A stretch of 35,377 nt of DNA from a virus. The DNA lies in IMG/VR virus record IMGVR_UViG_3300030060_002129, positions 1 through 35,377 of that record; one strand, 5' to 3'. Positions 7,309-13,786 of the stretch are shown piece by piece. The notes beneath the pieces are model-generated. The model searched no databases. It saw only the letters and a program-made list of their open reading frames with translations, and had not been told where the DNA came from. The translations under genes and the position numbers were made by a program. The stretch's first letter is position 1. Every line of letters begins with the position of its first letter.

Positions 7309-8652
7309 TTAATATATTCTAATGCCTGTAGGTTTGCCCGCACGTGCAAATAATGGATTAAACTCTCTCCAAACTAGATAGCCTAGTGCATCATTCATGT
7401 GATCGTAACCAGCGTCTTTATCTGGTTCGCCCTTATCTGTATAACTCTGTAACTCTAGACACTCAATCATACGTCTGCAACTGGCATTGATCTGTAGACG
7501 TATCTGCCCTTTTCCGTTGCATAACAAACCCTGTACGGCAGAGACTCTATCTCTGATTGCTGGATTGCTTTTGGCAGAGAGATTAGTGAAACCATAGGAT
7601 TCAAGAATCTGTATGTCTGTTTTTGCTGCATTAGTACTACGATTGCCGCCTGAAGCATCAGGGTAGACGTAAATCTTATTAGTAGGATATCTACGCTGTA
7701 TTTCCTGTGCAAGTGCGTCTGTATCATGTGCTGACACAATCTCATCAATTATTAACAATTTTTCTTCTAATTTAATTCCTATCACCGCGCTCATATTCCC
7801 AATATTAAAGTCTACTCCTATCCTTAATGGCTCCATCTGGATACTTGGAATAGTATCTACAATATTATCTTCTCTTACAAATCTGCTATATACCTGCGCA
7901 GTTGTGAGATTGGTAAACTCTCCGTTAAGGTAAGCCTGTAACATACTAGGGTCGTAGTTGGCCTGCATTCTTTCTATAAAATCCTCTGGTAAGTGTGGGT
8001 TGTCTTGCGTTCTCATCCTTATTAGCTTTCGGTCTGATCTTTCCTGTGCTGCCTCTGATCCAAATGTATTCCACATCCATCTAAAACCCTCTGGTGTGCT
8101 TGCTGCACAAAACTGTCTGACATTACCAGACCTCAACCTACCTAGAATCTTTGGAAATGCTCTATCACACACAGATGGTGCTACTGTATCTATTTCATCT
8201 GCTAATACAAAAGCTAAATTTAGACCGATTATGCGTGACCAGTTCTCGAAGCTTCTACAAAGTATCTTTGTATCTCCGTCTGGCAAATGCAGTATGTACT
8301 CAGGTAATGGACTAGCCCTGTATGAGTAAGGTATTTCATAGTGTTCTAAAAATTGTTCAAAGTCATTTTGCCAGATGTCTCGAATCAATGAACCTGTTGG
8401 CTCCATTACTGCACCTGTAAATCCTACGTTAAGTGCTGCTAGTTTCACACATACTGCACAAAGCGCTCTAGTTTTACCCGCACCATAACCAGCTGACAAG
8501 CCTAGTATCTCAGTATTGCTGTTATCAAAGAACTCCCTTTGTGGTTCGTGAAGATCGTTTCTAATATTTGCTAATAATTGTTTTATATCAATCGAAACTC
8601 CGCTAGTGCCTGCAATATCTAATACTGATCCTTCTCTAGTTAAGATGCTCAT
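7309..8652 (-). CDS. terL: Terminase large subunit
   Basis: 447 residues. The N-terminal ATPase has a Walker A loop GYGAGKT at 55-61 and Walker B VLADEID at 149-155, followed by a CAASTPEGF coupling motif near 182-190. The C-terminal RNase H-like nuclease shows GVDFNIGNMSA (D281), YVYPDASGG (D332) and AGYDHMNDALGY (D417/D421), the expected acidic triad region. The protein cuts concatemeric DNA and pumps it into the procapsid through the portal. The gene overlaps the small subunit (ATGA at 8649-8652), as usual for a terminase pair. The packaging mechanism (cos or headful) cannot be read from the sequence. Confidence 0.95.
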   Translation of the reverse strand: MSILTREGSVLDIAGTSGVSIDIKQLLANIRNDLHEPQREFFDNSNTEILGLSAGYGAGKTRALCAVCVKLAALNVGFTGAVMEPTGSLIRDIWQNDFEQFLEHYEIPYSYRASPLPEYILHLPDGDTKILCRSFENWSRIIGLNLAFVLADEIDTVAPSVCDRAFPKILGRLRSGNVRQFCAASTPEGFRWMWNTFGSEAAQERSDRKLIRMRTQDNPHLPEDFIERMQANYDPSMLQAYLNGEFTNLTTAQVYSRFVREDNIVDTIPSIQMEPLRIGVDFNIGNMSAVIGIKLEEKLLIIDEIVSAHDTDALAQEIQRRYPTNKIYVYPDASGGNRSTNAAKTDIQILESYGFTNLSAKSNPAIRDRVSAVQGLLCNGKGQIRLQINASCRRMIECLELQSYTDKGEPDKDAGYDHMNDALGYLVWREFNPLFARAGKPTGIRIY

Positions 8653-8972
8653 GTTGTAATCTGTGCAATCTTAGCCATTGAGTTAATACAGCCTAAAGCT
8701 ACGTTTAATTGATTGCTGTTTCTGGCCTCTTTTTGTAGGGTAGAAAGCTGGCTTAAAATGTCCGCGGTAAATTGCCTTCTGTCAATGTCAAAATCTTTCT
8801 TGAGAATGATACGTGCGTCTTGGATGTACTGCTCTGTCTGTCTTAGCTTCAGTCCCCACTCAGCCGCGGTATATTTTATTATTTCAGAGCGCGTTACACC
8901 ACGTGCAAGAAATGCTGCAATTTTGAAAGTTCTATAATCTTTTTCTGATTGTGTAGCCTTCTTTTTTTTCAC
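8649..8972 (-). CDS. Terminase small subunit
   Basis: 107 residues from a GTG start at 8972, in a TAGTG junction with the oxygenase gene. It begins with a basic KKKKATQ stretch, then a helix-turn-helix-like region (FLARGVTRSEIIKYTAAEWGLKLRQTEQYIQDA, about residues 21-53), followed by a helical oligomerisation segment (LSQLSTLQKEARNSNQLNVALGCINSMAKI). This is the architecture of small terminase proteins, which recognise packaging sites and stimulate the large subunit. Identification rests on this architecture and on the overlap with terL. The protein is slightly short compared with many homologues. Confidence 0.85.
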   Translation of the reverse strand: MKKKKATQSEKDYRTFKIAAFLARGVTRSEIIKYTAAEWGLKLRQTEQYIQDARIILKKDFDIDRRQFTADILSQLSTLQKEARNSNQLNVALGCINSMAKIAQITT

Positions 8973-9757
8973 TATTTTTCTAGATTGTGAAAGGAGTCAA
9001 GAGCGTACCAAACGTGAGAGTTTCTATAGCCTCCCTGATGGGTAGGAATAATCGGTGTAACTCCGTGCCTATTACGCCAAGCTGGATATACCAATAATGA
9101 ATTATCAGTTTGATCAAACGTGGCATTGTAATCAGGTACGTGTAAATTACCTCCCTTACTGTTACGCCTTTTGGTAATAATCATATTTATAGCACCTTTT
9201 ACATTGGCGTGGTCTTGGTGAACTGGTGCGGATATGTTGCAATTCGAGATAGTAGAACTAAAATTATTAGCGAAACGCCAGTTATCAGGTATTCTTTGCT
9301 TGATTTTGAATAAATGATTTTCAGCAACAGTTGGGATATATTTTTTTACTATTTCAAAAGATTTGATACCCGCTGCATACATTGCTTTAACAAAAGTATT
9401 AGCAGACTTTACAGAGTGAACAGATGATCTAGAGGCGTATGGCCTTCTCATGTGTGGTTTAGGTGGACATGAACCTAAAATAGTTGAATACTGCAATACT
9501 TCAGCTTTTTTATTGTGTAAGCCACTAGACCTTTTCATTTCTGATTTAGGTACGCGCTTAGTATGTATTTCTCTGTCAGCTATATTCACAAGGTTCTGTA
9601 AATCGTCTGGCAAAGTTTTTATAAACATACCCACAGGAGTACCATCTGGGTCTATTAGAATGCAATCTTCAAAAATATTAGGCTCAAAACCGCCTACACT
9701 ATCTCCAATCTTCAAAGGAGAAGTTACAGGCTTCAGGATAAGTTCAGGTAGTTTCAT
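8972..9757 (-). CDS. Fe(II)/2-oxoglutarate-dependent oxygenase, possibly TET/JBP-like
   Basis: 261 residues. The C-terminal half has the double-stranded beta-helix signature of 2-oxoglutarate oxygenases: H180-x-D182 in APVHQDHANVKGA, a GGNLHVP strand (202-208), and the distal H231 in WRNRHGVTPI, with R245 downstream as a candidate 2-oxoglutarate ligand. The SAPVHQD...GAINMII...GGNL...HGVTPI arrangement is close to the nucleic-acid-modifying TET/JBP-type family found in phages, which hydroxylate methylated pyrimidines. The residues are seen; a DNA substrate is inferred from the family resemblance and from neighbours (ParB-like protein, methyltransferase, terminase). A protein or small-molecule hydroxylase remains possible. 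It overlaps the methyltransferase gene by 4 bp. Confidence 0.75.
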   Translation of the reverse strand: MKLPELILKPVTSPLKIGDSVGGFEPNIFEDCILIDPDGTPVGMFIKTLPDDLQNLVNIADREIHTKRVPKSEMKRSSGLHNKKAEVLQYSTILGSCPPKPHMRRPYASRSSVHSVKSANTFVKAMYAAGIKSFEIVKKYIPTVAENHLFKIKQRIPDNWRFANNFSSTISNCNISAPVHQDHANVKGAINMIITKRRNSKGGNLHVPDYNATFDQTDNSLLVYPAWRNRHGVTPIIPTHQGGYRNSHVWYALDSFHNLEK

Positions 9758-11766: not shown

Positions 11767-12531
11767 TTAAAAGGGTTGGTCACTTGCTTTCTTTGCAAGC
11801 ATGGGATTTAATCTTGACTTAGATTTCTGTTCGCGCAACTCTAAAAACTGTTCGTATTGGCCATTCTTAATCCAACGAAAGCAATCAGGCCACATTGGTA
11901 CAAATTTTCCGTCTCTAATAAGTTTTACTCTGAGTCTTGAATCTGCTTCTAGTGCATCTTCTAATTTTTCCTGTGTTTTTTTGTCTAACTGTTCCCATTC
12001 TCTATAAGCTGGTTTCTTAGATTGAGACACACATTTATTATTTTGAGATTGATACTTTTTCCAAAAAGATTCAAAATTTTCAGAATATCCTTTCTTTTTA
12101 GTTTTTTGTTTTAGTTTAACTTGTTTTACTTCGGGTTCATCTGATACACCACCCCTAGTTGCTGAGATACACTGGGGTAGTTTATCTGGTGAACTGGTTG
12201 CTGAAATGGACTGCGGTTCACTACTGGATAGTTGAGGTGTTGGGACTCTACATTCGTGCCAAACTGTAACTCGATATGCATTGGTCTTTTGGCCGTGTTC
12301 ATCAATTCTGGAAACTTTCTGTAGCCAGCCCAGCGAACATAATTGTTCAACAGTATGAATAACCTTTGTTCTACACATACCTGCATCTTTAGCAATCGTG
12401 CTATAACTAGGCCAGATATTCGGGTAGTAGCTTTGCAGCACCCATAACACCGCTAATTGGTGTGGGTCTATTCTTCCTTTAAGGGCAGTAGGCAAAGATA
12501 CGAATGGAGTATTTTCTGGTATGAAACTCAT
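11767..12531 (-). CDS. Winged-helix replication-initiator-like protein
   Basis: 254 residues. The N-terminal 95 residues form a winged helix-turn-helix: DPHQLAVLWVLQSYYPNIWPSYSTIAKDAGMCRTKVIHTVEQLCSLGWL (recognition helix about 50-62), as in phage replication proteins of the O/DnaD type. A Ser/Thr/Lys-rich linker (about 98-150) leads to a second helical domain with FESFWKKYQ, KKPAYREWEQLDKKTQ and FRWIKNGQYEQF, resembling the C-terminal domain of phage replisome organisers. It is probably a DNA-binding replication initiator that recruits host helicase; a transcription regulator is the alternative. It is the first gene of the long leftward block. Confidence 0.75.
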   Translation of the reverse strand: MSFIPENTPFVSLPTALKGRIDPHQLAVLWVLQSYYPNIWPSYSTIAKDAGMCRTKVIHTVEQLCSLGWLQKVSRIDEHGQKTNAYRVTVWHECRVPTPQLSSSEPQSISATSSPDKLPQCISATRGGVSDEPEVKQVKLKQKTKKKGYSENFESFWKKYQSQNNKCVSQSKKPAYREWEQLDKKTQEKLEDALEADSRLRVKLIRDGKFVPMWPDCFRWIKNGQYEQFLELREQKSKSRLNPMLAKKASDQPF

Positions 12532-12536
12532 TTTCT

Positions 12537-12965
12537 ATGAAGTATGTAATTACTGTTGAAGGTATTGAAGCTGCACCACAGGGCAGTAAAAGGTACATTG
12601 GCCGAGGAATAATGATTGAATCATGCAAAAGGGTAAAGTCATGGAGAGATGCTGTTAGGGTAGAAGCAAATAAAGTTGTTGGGGAATTAATCGAAGAACC
12701 AGTACATATTGATCTAGTTTTCTGGTTTCATAGACCGAAATCTCATTTAAACGCAAAGGGAGAGCTAAAGCAATCAGCGCCTAAATATCCTACTACTAGG
12801 AACAAAGGAGATATAGACAAACTATGTCGTAGCACTTTAGATGCTTTGACATTATCAGCTATTGCTGACGATTCGCAAGTGGTAAGTTTGCAAGCCCGAA
12901 AATATTATTGCAACAAAAAAGAGACCCTACGGCCTCACTCAATGATAACGATACAAACATTCTAA
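12537..12965 (+). CDS. rusA: RusA-type Holliday junction resolvase
   Basis: 142 residues. The RusA signature is clear: VEGIEAAPQGSKRY at the N-terminus, DLVFWFHRPKSH, and NKGDIDKLCRSTLDALT followed by AIADDSQVV (catalytic aspartates in GDIDKL and ADDSQ). The dimeric enzyme cuts four-way junctions and would clear recombination and replication branches before packaging. It is the only rightward gene between 1 and 15.1 kb, and its ATG lies only 5 bp from the divergent start of the winged-helix gene. Its promoter must therefore lie inside that gene, or it is read from a transcript whose start is not visible. Confidence 0.92.
   Translation: MKYVITVEGIEAAPQGSKRYIGRGIMIESCKRVKSWRDAVRVEANKVVGELIEEPVHIDLVFWFHRPKSHLNAKGELKQSAPKYPTTRNKGDIDKLCRSTLDALTLSAIADDSQVVSLQARKYYCNKKETLRPHSMITIQTF
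12609..12637 (-). promoter_or_regulatory. Weak candidate promoter for the leftward 12.5-kb block
   Basis: On the minus strand TTTACC (12632-12637) and CATTAT (12609-12614) are 17 bp apart, each matching four of six sigma-70 consensus bases. It lies about 80 bp upstream of the winged-helix gene, inside rusA. The spacer contains a perfect palindrome ATGATT-G-AATCAT (12612-12624), which could be an operator. The bases also encode RusA, and 6-bp arms will occur by chance several times in a window of this size, so this is tentative. Confidence 0.25.
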
Positions 12966-12966
12966 G

Positions 12967-13083
12967 AGTCGGGGGATAAGTAAGCCACCTCGCGTAGACC
13001 TCCCTGCCTTTTGTAGATTTTTGACTACAATTTTCCTAAGCTTTCAGACCTAGCTTTGCAATAGGTCATCAGGCTCCCCGACT
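12967..13083. ncRNA. Unassigned structured RNA element between convergent genes
   Basis: This 117-base stretch between the rusA stop and the stop of the opposite gene folds into a closed multi-branch structure. AGTCGGGG (12967-12974) pairs perfectly with CCCCGACT (13076-13083). AGCC (12983-12986) pairs with GGCT (13072-13075), leaving an 8-nt bulge on one side only. Inside are hairpins TTGTAG/CTACAA (13011-13016 and 13025-13030) and GACCTA/TAGGTC (13047-13052 and 13062-13067). A second AGACCT at 12996-13001 could compete for AGGTC at 13063-13067. Neither strand has a U tract after the closing stem, so this is not a normal terminator. Which strand is functional is unknown. I do not recognise the class. 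Confidence 0.6.
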
Positions 13084-13246
13084 AAAGTTTATTAAGCTCC
13101 ACTTCCAAAGAGTAGCAGACCCGCGCGATCAATCCAGCATCTAAATATTCTTTTTCTTTCTCGATTCCTTTTACAGTTGGATTCTTTTTTAGAAAGTCCC
13201 TTAGAGCTACGCCATCTTCCGCTCTGAGATACATGAAAATGTTCAT
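13082..13246 (-). CDS. Hypothetical 54-aa protein (preferred frame)
   Basis: ATG at 13246 opens 54 residues: MNIFMYLRAEDGVALRDFL, then KKNPTVKGIEKEKEYLDAGL and a VCYSLEVELNKL end. Composition and helix-like periodicity are those of a real protein, unlike the overlapping 68-aa frame on the same strand. Its in-frame upstream codon is TAG and there is no good ribosome binding site, so the true product may instead begin in the other frame and shift into this one. No family recognised. The stop codon overlaps the last bases of the structured RNA element. Confidence 0.6.
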   Translation of the reverse strand: MNIFMYLRAEDGVALRDFLKKNPTVKGIEKEKEYLDAGLIARVCYSLEVELNKL

Positions 13247-13298
13247 CTATACGTTTGGATAGCGAGAGAATGTAACTTCTTACAAGCTGATCATACAC
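13092..13298 (-). CDS. 68-aa frame overlapping the 54-aa gene; likely real only at its N-terminus
   Basis: GTG at 13298, one base after the stop of the upstream 70-aa gene, opens MYDQLVRSYILSLSKRIDEHF, which reads like protein. Further on the frame becomes Arg/Ser/Trp/Cys-rich (GRWRSSKGLSKKESNCKRN), typical of an out-of-frame reading, exactly where the overlapping frame becomes protein-like. The simplest explanations are a single-base indel or programmed shift near 13230-13240 joining the two, or a short gene overlapping a second one. I list both frames because the sequence alone cannot decide. Confidence 0.4.
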   Translation of the reverse strand: MYDQLVRSYILSLSKRIDEHFHVSQSGRWRSSKGLSKKESNCKRNRERKRIFRCWIDRAGLLLFGSGA

Positions 13299-13299
13299 C

Positions 13300-13512
13300 C
13301 TAATTTAAAATATCATCATAGGGTGGGATATCTTCATTGTAAATTTTGTCGTCAAGCAACCTGATTTCATTGATTATAGAAGTGGTCGCAGCTATGGCTA
13401 CTTCCACCTCATCAAGTTTTCTTTTATCGCAAAGGTAATCTTTCCACTTATGAAGCTCTAGATAGCAAAATTGGCGCTTTACTTCGTATGCTAAAGATTG
13501 TTCAGTTGGCAT
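13300..13512 (-). CDS. Hypothetical 70-aa protein
   Basis: 70 residues, MPTEQSLAYEVKRQFCYLEL onwards, helical, with an acidic C-terminus (DDKIYNEDIPPYDDILN). The start overlaps the upstream 94-aa gene by 11 bp. No family recognised and no membrane segment or metal-binding cysteines. It belongs to the leftward small-gene operon that starts at the 15.0-kb control region, so early expression is likely; the function is unknown. Confidence 0.7.
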   Translation of the reverse strand: MPTEQSLAYEVKRQFCYLELHKWKDYLCDKRKLDEVEVAIAATTSIINEIRLLDDKIYNEDIPPYDDILN

Positions 13513-13786
13513 TTAGACTATCTTGAAATTTGTCATTAGCGTCTTCATAGACCTCTTTAATATCGCGCCCTTCAATCCTTACATCAACATCTAAGCCAAA
13601 CTTTTTAGCACATAATGTCAGGTTATGAAAAACTACAATGAAGAAAGTAGGAACTGTATCTGTAAAATCCCACTCATAGCCATCTTTCCTAGAACAGTTT
13701 TGTACTAGCCTAATTTGATTATCAAGCTGTTTCATACGCGGTGGAAACATTCTTAGGAATCGTTGTTCTTTTTCGTTAAGTTTCAT
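13502..13786 (-). CDS. Hypothetical 94-aa protein
   Basis: 94 residues, MKLNEKEQRFLRMFPPRMKQL onwards, a mix of amphipathic helices with a hydrophobic strand (TVPTFFIVVFHNLTLCA, about 45-61) followed by LDVDVRIEGRD. That could be an alpha/beta mini-domain; the hydrophobic run is too polar to be a confident membrane span. The start is in a TAATG junction with the 56-aa gene. No family recognised. Confidence 0.75.
   Translation of the reverse strand: MKLNEKEQRFLRMFPPRMKQLDNQIRLVQNCSRKDGYEWDFTDTVPTFFIVVFHNLTLCAKKFGLDVDVRIEGRDIKEVYEDANDKFQDSLNAN

Follow-up and report, generated by a model that had tools for sequence, protein, structure and literature searches.

A new structured RNA family in marine picocyanobacterial siphoviruses and their hosts

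The 117-bp element between two convergent stop codons of the window (the whole stretch of DNA analysed, a virus record of 35,377 bases) is almost certainly one copy of a new family of structured RNAs of ~90-150 nt; each phage record carries a single copy, in nearly all cases upstream of the terminase genes and on their strand. Over positions 12500-13600 the window was 89-90% identical to the Prochlorococcus MED4 siphophages MED4-117, MED4-184 and P-HS2, and it is a marine picocyanobacterial siphovirus related to the Prochlorococcus phages MED4-117 and P-HS2. The original prediction of an unassigned, multi-branched structured RNA was borne out by abundant paired substitutions and by the lack of any Rfam match; the observation is real and larger in extent than was first stated. 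The element and the genes around it were located as follows.

12967..13083, minus strand: whole structured RNA, 5' end at 13082/13083 and 3' end at 12968/12967, with an outer A-U pair 13083/12967
13082..13246, minus strand: small ORF of 54 aa (phrog_34258), immediately ahead of the RNA and co-directional with it, with a stop that overlaps the element
12537..12965, plus strand: RusA-like resolvase gene (phrog_140), convergent with the RNA
11767..12531, minus strand: replication initiation (O-like) gene (phrog_270), first same-strand gene downstream of the RNA
8649..8972, minus strand: small gene in the small-terminase position (phrog_34910, no PHROGs function)
7309..8652, minus strand: terminase large subunit (phrog_2), downstream of the RNA on the same strand

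The placement between convergent stops was as predicted, with the rusA stop at 12965 and the stop (TAG, 13084-13082) of the opposing 54-aa ORF overlapping the first base of the element. The minus-strand genes of the window covered replication initiation, ParB-like/methylase, queuine tRNA-ribosyltransferase, the TerS position, TerL, portal, head and tail functions. The queuine tRNA-ribosyltransferase family gene (8972-9757, minus strand) adjoined the terminase genes, was conserved across many of these phages and possibly serves 7-deazaguanine DNA modification. In addition, a terminator-like hairpin with T6 (14006-13989, minus strand) was found directly after a 322-aa gene, ahead of both the small genes and the RNA.

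The family architecture comprised a closing helix (P1) and three arms (P2, P3 and P4), with near-invariant joining segments CCUGAU, UGAAAGY and AUCYAUC. Covariance model R1 matched positions 12968-13082 of the minus strand of the window, a row of its own training set, with 74.1 bits, while the non-training relatives MED4-117 and P-HS2 scored 72.8 and 72.0 bits. The parts of the fold in the window were as follows.

13076..13083, minus strand: P1 5' strand, RNA AGUCGGGG
12967..12974, minus strand: P1 3' strand, RNA CCCCGACU
13071..13073, minus strand: CCU, pairing with the GG-containing strand 13004-13002; near-invariant and weakly tested
13062..13067, minus strand: P2 5' strand, RNA GACCUA; 4 of 5 modelled pairs compensated
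13047..13052, minus strand: P2 3' strand, RNA UAGGUC
13044..13071, minus strand: conserved UGAUG (13071-13067) and CUGA (13047-13044) on either side of P2, the same residues as in the signature of box C/D-type kink-turns (predicted motif)
13040..13041, minus strand: GY side of the 2-bp helix closing the P3 arm, partner RC at 13007-13006; covariation
13006..13007, minus strand: RC side of the same helix; covariation
13025..13030, minus strand: P3 5' strand, RNA UUGUAG; compensated in relatives
13011..13016, minus strand: P3 3' strand, RNA CUACAA
12997..13001, minus strand: P4 5' strand, RNA AGGUC; 4 of 4 modelled P4 pairs compensated
12982..12986, minus strand: P4 3' strand, RNA GGCUU

The 8-bp closing stem (AGTCGGGG/CCCCGACT) was present at 12967-12974 and 13076-13083, and both 6-bp inner hairpins (13011-13016/13025-13030 and 13047-13052/13062-13067) were found with compensatory changes. 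Three of the four stems first named for a covariation check, now P1, P2 and P3, were thus compensated, and the fourth, a coaxial AGCC/GGCT stem, was wrong: it was not conserved, the GGCT side being TAGT in relatives such as L005, and covariation supported P4 (13001-12997/12986-12982), CCU/RGG and GY/RC in its place. The GY/RC helix was GC/GC in the window and GU/AC in sister phages; the CCU/RGG pairing was 100% paired with variation limited to U-G/U-A. The proposed competing AGACCT copy was not conserved in relatives either, and the idea of a switching fold, which had rested on it, falls with it.

Comparative evidence, not fold energy, decides the reality of the element. Fold energy was only mildly unusual (z of -2.7 for the plus and -1.75 for the minus strand), and thermodynamic folding as sole proof was set aside as too weak to decide, given these z values and the single-sequence folds. 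An alignment of 34 diverse copies (A1) was evaluated against a six-helix model of 25 pairs, in which 97.2% of the cells were paired and double changes occurred in 15 of the 25 pairs. The double-change cells numbered 114 compared to 35.5 in shuffles (0/500), covariation was 0.403 compared to 0.156 in shuffles, and the signal collapsed when partners were slid. RNAalifold independently recovered P1, P2, P4 and part of P3. For 85 distinct host copies there were 226 double-change cells against 76 in shuffles, a host-set alignment that leans towards the model because the host copies were aligned to it. A search pattern leaving P1 free recovered covarying P1 variants in which both sides had changed together (GUCGGGU/ACCCGAC, GCCGGGG/CCCCGGC, ACCGGGG/CCCCGGU and GUCGGGA/UCCCGAC); P1 also occurred as GUCGGGG/CCCCGAC, and a distant host variant had AUCUGGUG/CACCAGAU. 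Loci fetched by the rusA protein alone nearly all kept the element after rusA, with hairpins that differed in sequence while pairing was kept, and a 16-base minus-strand pattern recovered the same fold in ~100 viral contigs, the neighbouring genes being different in most of them. Homologous loci without paired substitutions, or a bare gap at this position, had been named as signs of an accidental fold; the homologous loci examined were rich in paired substitutions. Finally, G-U cells outnumbered A-C cells by 71:4 and 234:38 in alignments A1 and A2, and therefore the functional strand is the minus strand of the window and the molecule is RNA, as a slight G-U hint in the original prediction had suggested.

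The UGAUG and CUGA segments point to a putative kink-turn at P2. They flank P2 in the register expected for the box C/D type, UGAUG lying opposite CUGA, and the adjoining G-C pair (G16-C45) was invariant in A1 (34/34). The columns were conserved at 0.94-1.00 in A1 and at 0.95-0.99 in A2, except the second U of UGAUG (0.61). Known kink-turns are marked by a sharp kink or a bound L7Ae-type protein, whereas the likeness here lies in the sequence signature, and the predicted motif sits inside a larger junction.

Searches against known RNA classes showed that none of the 4227 families of Rfam 15 reached the gathering cut-off for the element, in the window or its relatives, and relaxed thresholds produced nothing credible for the window; the near-matches IMES-1, ZNRD1-AS1 and sR28 were far below the cut-off and were rejected. 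No tRNA or tmRNA was detected by ARAGORN, and phi29 pRNA (RF00044) was among the Rfam families that did not match the element. The CUGA/CCUGAU words resemble those of TPP, but their order differs and no Rfam match was found. A stimulator of stop-codon readthrough or frameshifting, suggested by the 5-6 nt spacing, was rejected since arm lengths vary irrespective of frame and the host spacing varies. In the open-access full text searched, the motif, its sequence and its position were undescribed, while an unnamed entry in large prediction lists (supplements, preprints, subscription papers) is possible. Overall, the RNA family is well supported, and neither Rfam 15 nor the open literature searched contains it.

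Among phages, the covariance model identified exactly one copy in 29 of 30 records, MED4-117 and P-HS2 included; the thirtieth was a wrong pattern pick. Neighbour mapping by tblastn around 211 viral loci showed TerS (112 of 112 loci) and TerL (111 of 112) downstream of the RNA on the same strand, and primase upstream of it in 53 of 53 loci; rusA was placed either convergently just downstream of the RNA or farther upstream. Given this same-strand position upstream of the terminase genes, the RNA heads the late operon, with the exceptions of L155 and L175, where it heads an exonuclease VIII operon. In L203 the RNA was ~320 nt upstream of a GpA-type terminase (PF05876) non-homologous to that of the window, and in MED4-117 it heads a ~28-kb co-directional block with structural genes if the ends of the linear record are joined. 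Synteny in phages followed the late genes while the upstream gene families varied. An independent survey anchored on TerL found the element in all 14 of the marine relatives that had 5 kb or more of upstream sequence, and not in any of ~18 more distant relatives (72-75% TerL identity), which are probably from other habitats or hosts.

A terminator-like hairpin was located directly upstream of the RNA in the divergent phages L163, L187, L198 and L203 and ~30 nt upstream in L176, so that polymerase in these phages has already gone past a termination site when it makes the RNA. Phage copies showed no enrichment of a promoter-like hexamer at a set spacing before them, as would fit an element embedded in a transcript. 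As predicted, the element itself is not an intrinsic terminator: its 3' end has no U-tract, and a terminator followed within 150 nt in only 5 of 139 phage copies, so that none is conserved. A hairpin followed by TTTTTT (GAGGCC-GTAG-GGTCTC, 12936-12921, minus strand) lies inside rusA, 31 nt after the RNA; it was rejected as a conserved terminator, as it goes along with the rusA coding sequence and about half of the clade lacks it. Between the RNA and the first gene downstream of it, the convergent rusA takes up all the room but 5 bp. In L187 and L198 the genes after the RNA were convergent, and no strong intrinsic terminator was found on the late strand of MED4-117.

Among bacteria, an exact pattern searched in 84,980 species genomes produced 22 loci, nearly all in Synechococcus or Prochlorococcus, and the covariance model showed that 47 of 300 picocyanobacterial genomes carry 1-12 copies. 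The single-cell assembly AG-670-F04 had 20 copies and Synechococcus WH7803 had three chromosomal copies within 7 kb, at genes located at 850.7-857.7 kb. The RNA also occurred in metagenome-assembled records named Gammaproteobacteria, Blastopirellula and TMED88, probably on cyanobacterial or cyanophage contigs that were binned there. Host copies were mostly found 5-25 nt after the stop of a short gene, often with a signal-peptide-like start, and an intrinsic terminator directly followed 42 of 71 copies by a strict rule (0.8 expected). The next gene was on the same strand in 30 cases and on the opposite strand in 20, a weak bias.

Several features of the host loci were also observed. In Synechococcus chromosomes (L279:4400-7560 and L280:4700-7500), unrelated small genes had a common conserved 5' leader, e.g., GCGATGGTATGTGCATCGGGGGGAATGACCTCCACACACCCAATCAATCAAATG, and often also the 3' RNA element, giving cassette-like units with common 5' and 3' flanks. 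A VapE-like protein (PF05272), typical of phage satellites and integrative islands, was encoded near three RNA copies at L279:8326-10674 (minus strand). In Synechococcus UW140 (L229, L230, L232 and L243), contig ends shared a near-identical gene 3' end and the same RNA before diverging, the gene tail being Q/Y-rich in three of the four (e.g., QPGYGYQTV...QQPRYGY); these units are recently duplicated. In Prochlorococcus-like loci (L419:11985-12076, minus strand, L422 and L425) the RNA followed an apparent single gene family starting MDFKxHQLSxSN.

Three 1.7-Mb genomes carried a diverged RNA (50-54 bits) with the wholly different P1 AUCUGGUG/CACCAGAU, and a fourth had a degraded copy. This RNA starts 13 nt after a promoter-like pair, TTGACA/TATAGT, at the head of an operon that encodes matches to PADLOC PDC-M33A, B and C and has a DNA cytosine methylase upstream; the operon is a candidate anti-phage defence operon. 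When this leader variant was folded as a single sequence, P1 and a portion of P2 were all that formed, and the support for its inner helices comes from the model alignment. A conserved palindrome, CCGTACATATTACATATGTACGG, was found before the promoter at loci L426, L427 (G277, G228) and L419 (G199).

The RNA thus occurs behind a promoter, at the front of late operons and between stop and terminator, and these three settings argue for a self-contained RNA domain affecting its own transcript. We tentatively propose that it acts in cis during transcription, by put-like antitermination. Transcription from the early side would run through the last small early gene, and the RNA would fold on leaving RNA polymerase. 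The folded RNA, directly or via a bound host or phage factor, would make the elongation complex ignore pauses and terminators, and the modified polymerase would thereby be able to traverse the region antisense to rusA and the ~28-kb late block. In host picocyanobacteria, the same RNA would serve transcription units of the cell itself. Action on transcription elongation is favoured by the late-operon synteny and the promoter-proximal case; against it, most host copies are at the 3' end directly before an intrinsic terminator, where the purpose of an antiterminator is not obvious, the same-strand bias of the next host gene is weak, and the RNA of L155 and L175 heads an exonuclease operon.

A comparable system is HK022 put, a cis-acting phage RNA in the early transcript upstream of long phage operons (PMC9378689), as is proposed here, and the RNA at the front of a long phage operon has a put-like position. 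HK022 putL lies directly behind promoter PL (PMC9378689), a placement shared by the PDC-M33 leader variant. Put is ~70 nt with two adjacent stem-loops and suppresses termination through the zinc-binding domain of the RNA polymerase beta' subunit, whereas the present element forms a closing helix plus three arms in ~90-150 nt and has no sequence resemblance to it. The epsC/EAR RNA (RF01735) is likewise a compact structured RNA able to lead long operons, but its hosts and fold differ and no Rfam match connects the two. By analogy, the element may work like HK022 put or epsC/EAR while being unrelated to both. The novelty concerns the RNA family, and the mechanism may be of a known kind.

A somewhat unlikely explanation, though one to be taken seriously, is a portable element of mRNA fate, in which the fold would be recognised by a nuclease or by an RNA-binding factor of the host, possibly one that binds kink-turns, and the RNA around it would be stabilised or processed as a result; hosts would place the element 3' in small secreted-protein messages and phages at the early/late junction. 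The 3' host placement, the lack of strong late-strand terminators in MED4-117 and the two phages with convergent genes favour it over antitermination. The box C/D-like signature around P2, the near indifference of host copies to the direction of the downstream gene and the phage RNA directly following the last early gene are also consistent with such an element, whereas the terminator between the RNA and the upstream message in L163 and L203, the 5' leader of the PDC-M33 operon and a phage synteny that tracks late genes while upstream families vary argue against it. The L17 downstream element and other 3' UTR motifs (PMC2864571) likewise follow a stop codon as the host copies do, but the present RNA is not bound to one gene family and is not always 3'.

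It is unlikely that the RNA works in trans, as a phage ncRNA cut out of the transcript or read from it that binds and diverts a host component, the host copies being natural targets or homologues. One copy per phage, very highly conserved unpaired residues and a position relative to genes and terminators that differs between lineages would suit such an RNA, but phage copies have no conserved upstream promoter and rarely a following terminator (5/139), and hosts carry many copies embedded in mRNAs. A ligand-binding regulatory domain of the riboswitch class, setting the expression of adjoining genes, is improbable: the multi-branched fold, invariant junction core and single 5' leader behind a promoter recall one, against which stand the absence of a conserved expression platform, the diverse unrelated neighbours and the mostly 3' position in hosts. 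Still less credence is due to a self-cleaving ribozyme cutting late from early RNA: a compact, highly conserved core in many unrelated contexts speaks for it, but the element matched no Rfam ribozyme family. The CUGAU...UGAAA run resembles the hammerhead core, but A9 is absent, and inspection of A1 showed no stem III/NUH cleavage-site arrangement. A DNA-level site mimicking RNA (packaging pac/cos, integron-like attC or recombination linker), for which closeness to the terminase genes and host copies in gene arrays with differing neighbours might speak, is extremely improbable and largely refuted by the tolerance of G-U on one strand only (71:4, 234:38); attC in particular is a single imperfect hairpin with R/L boxes conserved in structure and not sequence, in contrast to a multi-branched element with conserved unpaired residues, and the P-HS2 element is far from the record ends. 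Also against such a site, 490-bp direct terminal repeats and likely T7-like packaging were reported for P-HS2 (PMC7852597).

Structured RNAs from marine samples and cyanophages have been described before as the manA, wcaG and PhotoRC-II motifs, which adjoin metabolic or photosynthesis genes, manA and wcaG occurring in T4-like cyanophages (PMC2864571). These are in Rfam, where the present element matches none, and unlike them it goes with the late block of siphoviruses, at whose front the terminase genes stand.

It is a doubtful idea that hosts captured the late-operon control RNA of phages as an infection sensor, before PDC-M33 and at small secreted-protein genes. If true, the regulatory state that turns phage late genes on would also turn these host genes on, and the RNA would be a control element common to both sides of the phage-host conflict. 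To our knowledge, the early-to-late transcription switch in these siphoviruses is unstudied. Cultured carriers are at hand in MED4-117 and P-HS2 on Prochlorococcus MED4 and in Synechococcus WH7803, and the RNA provides a concrete, testable handle on early-to-late transcription in widespread ocean viruses and their picocyanobacterial hosts.
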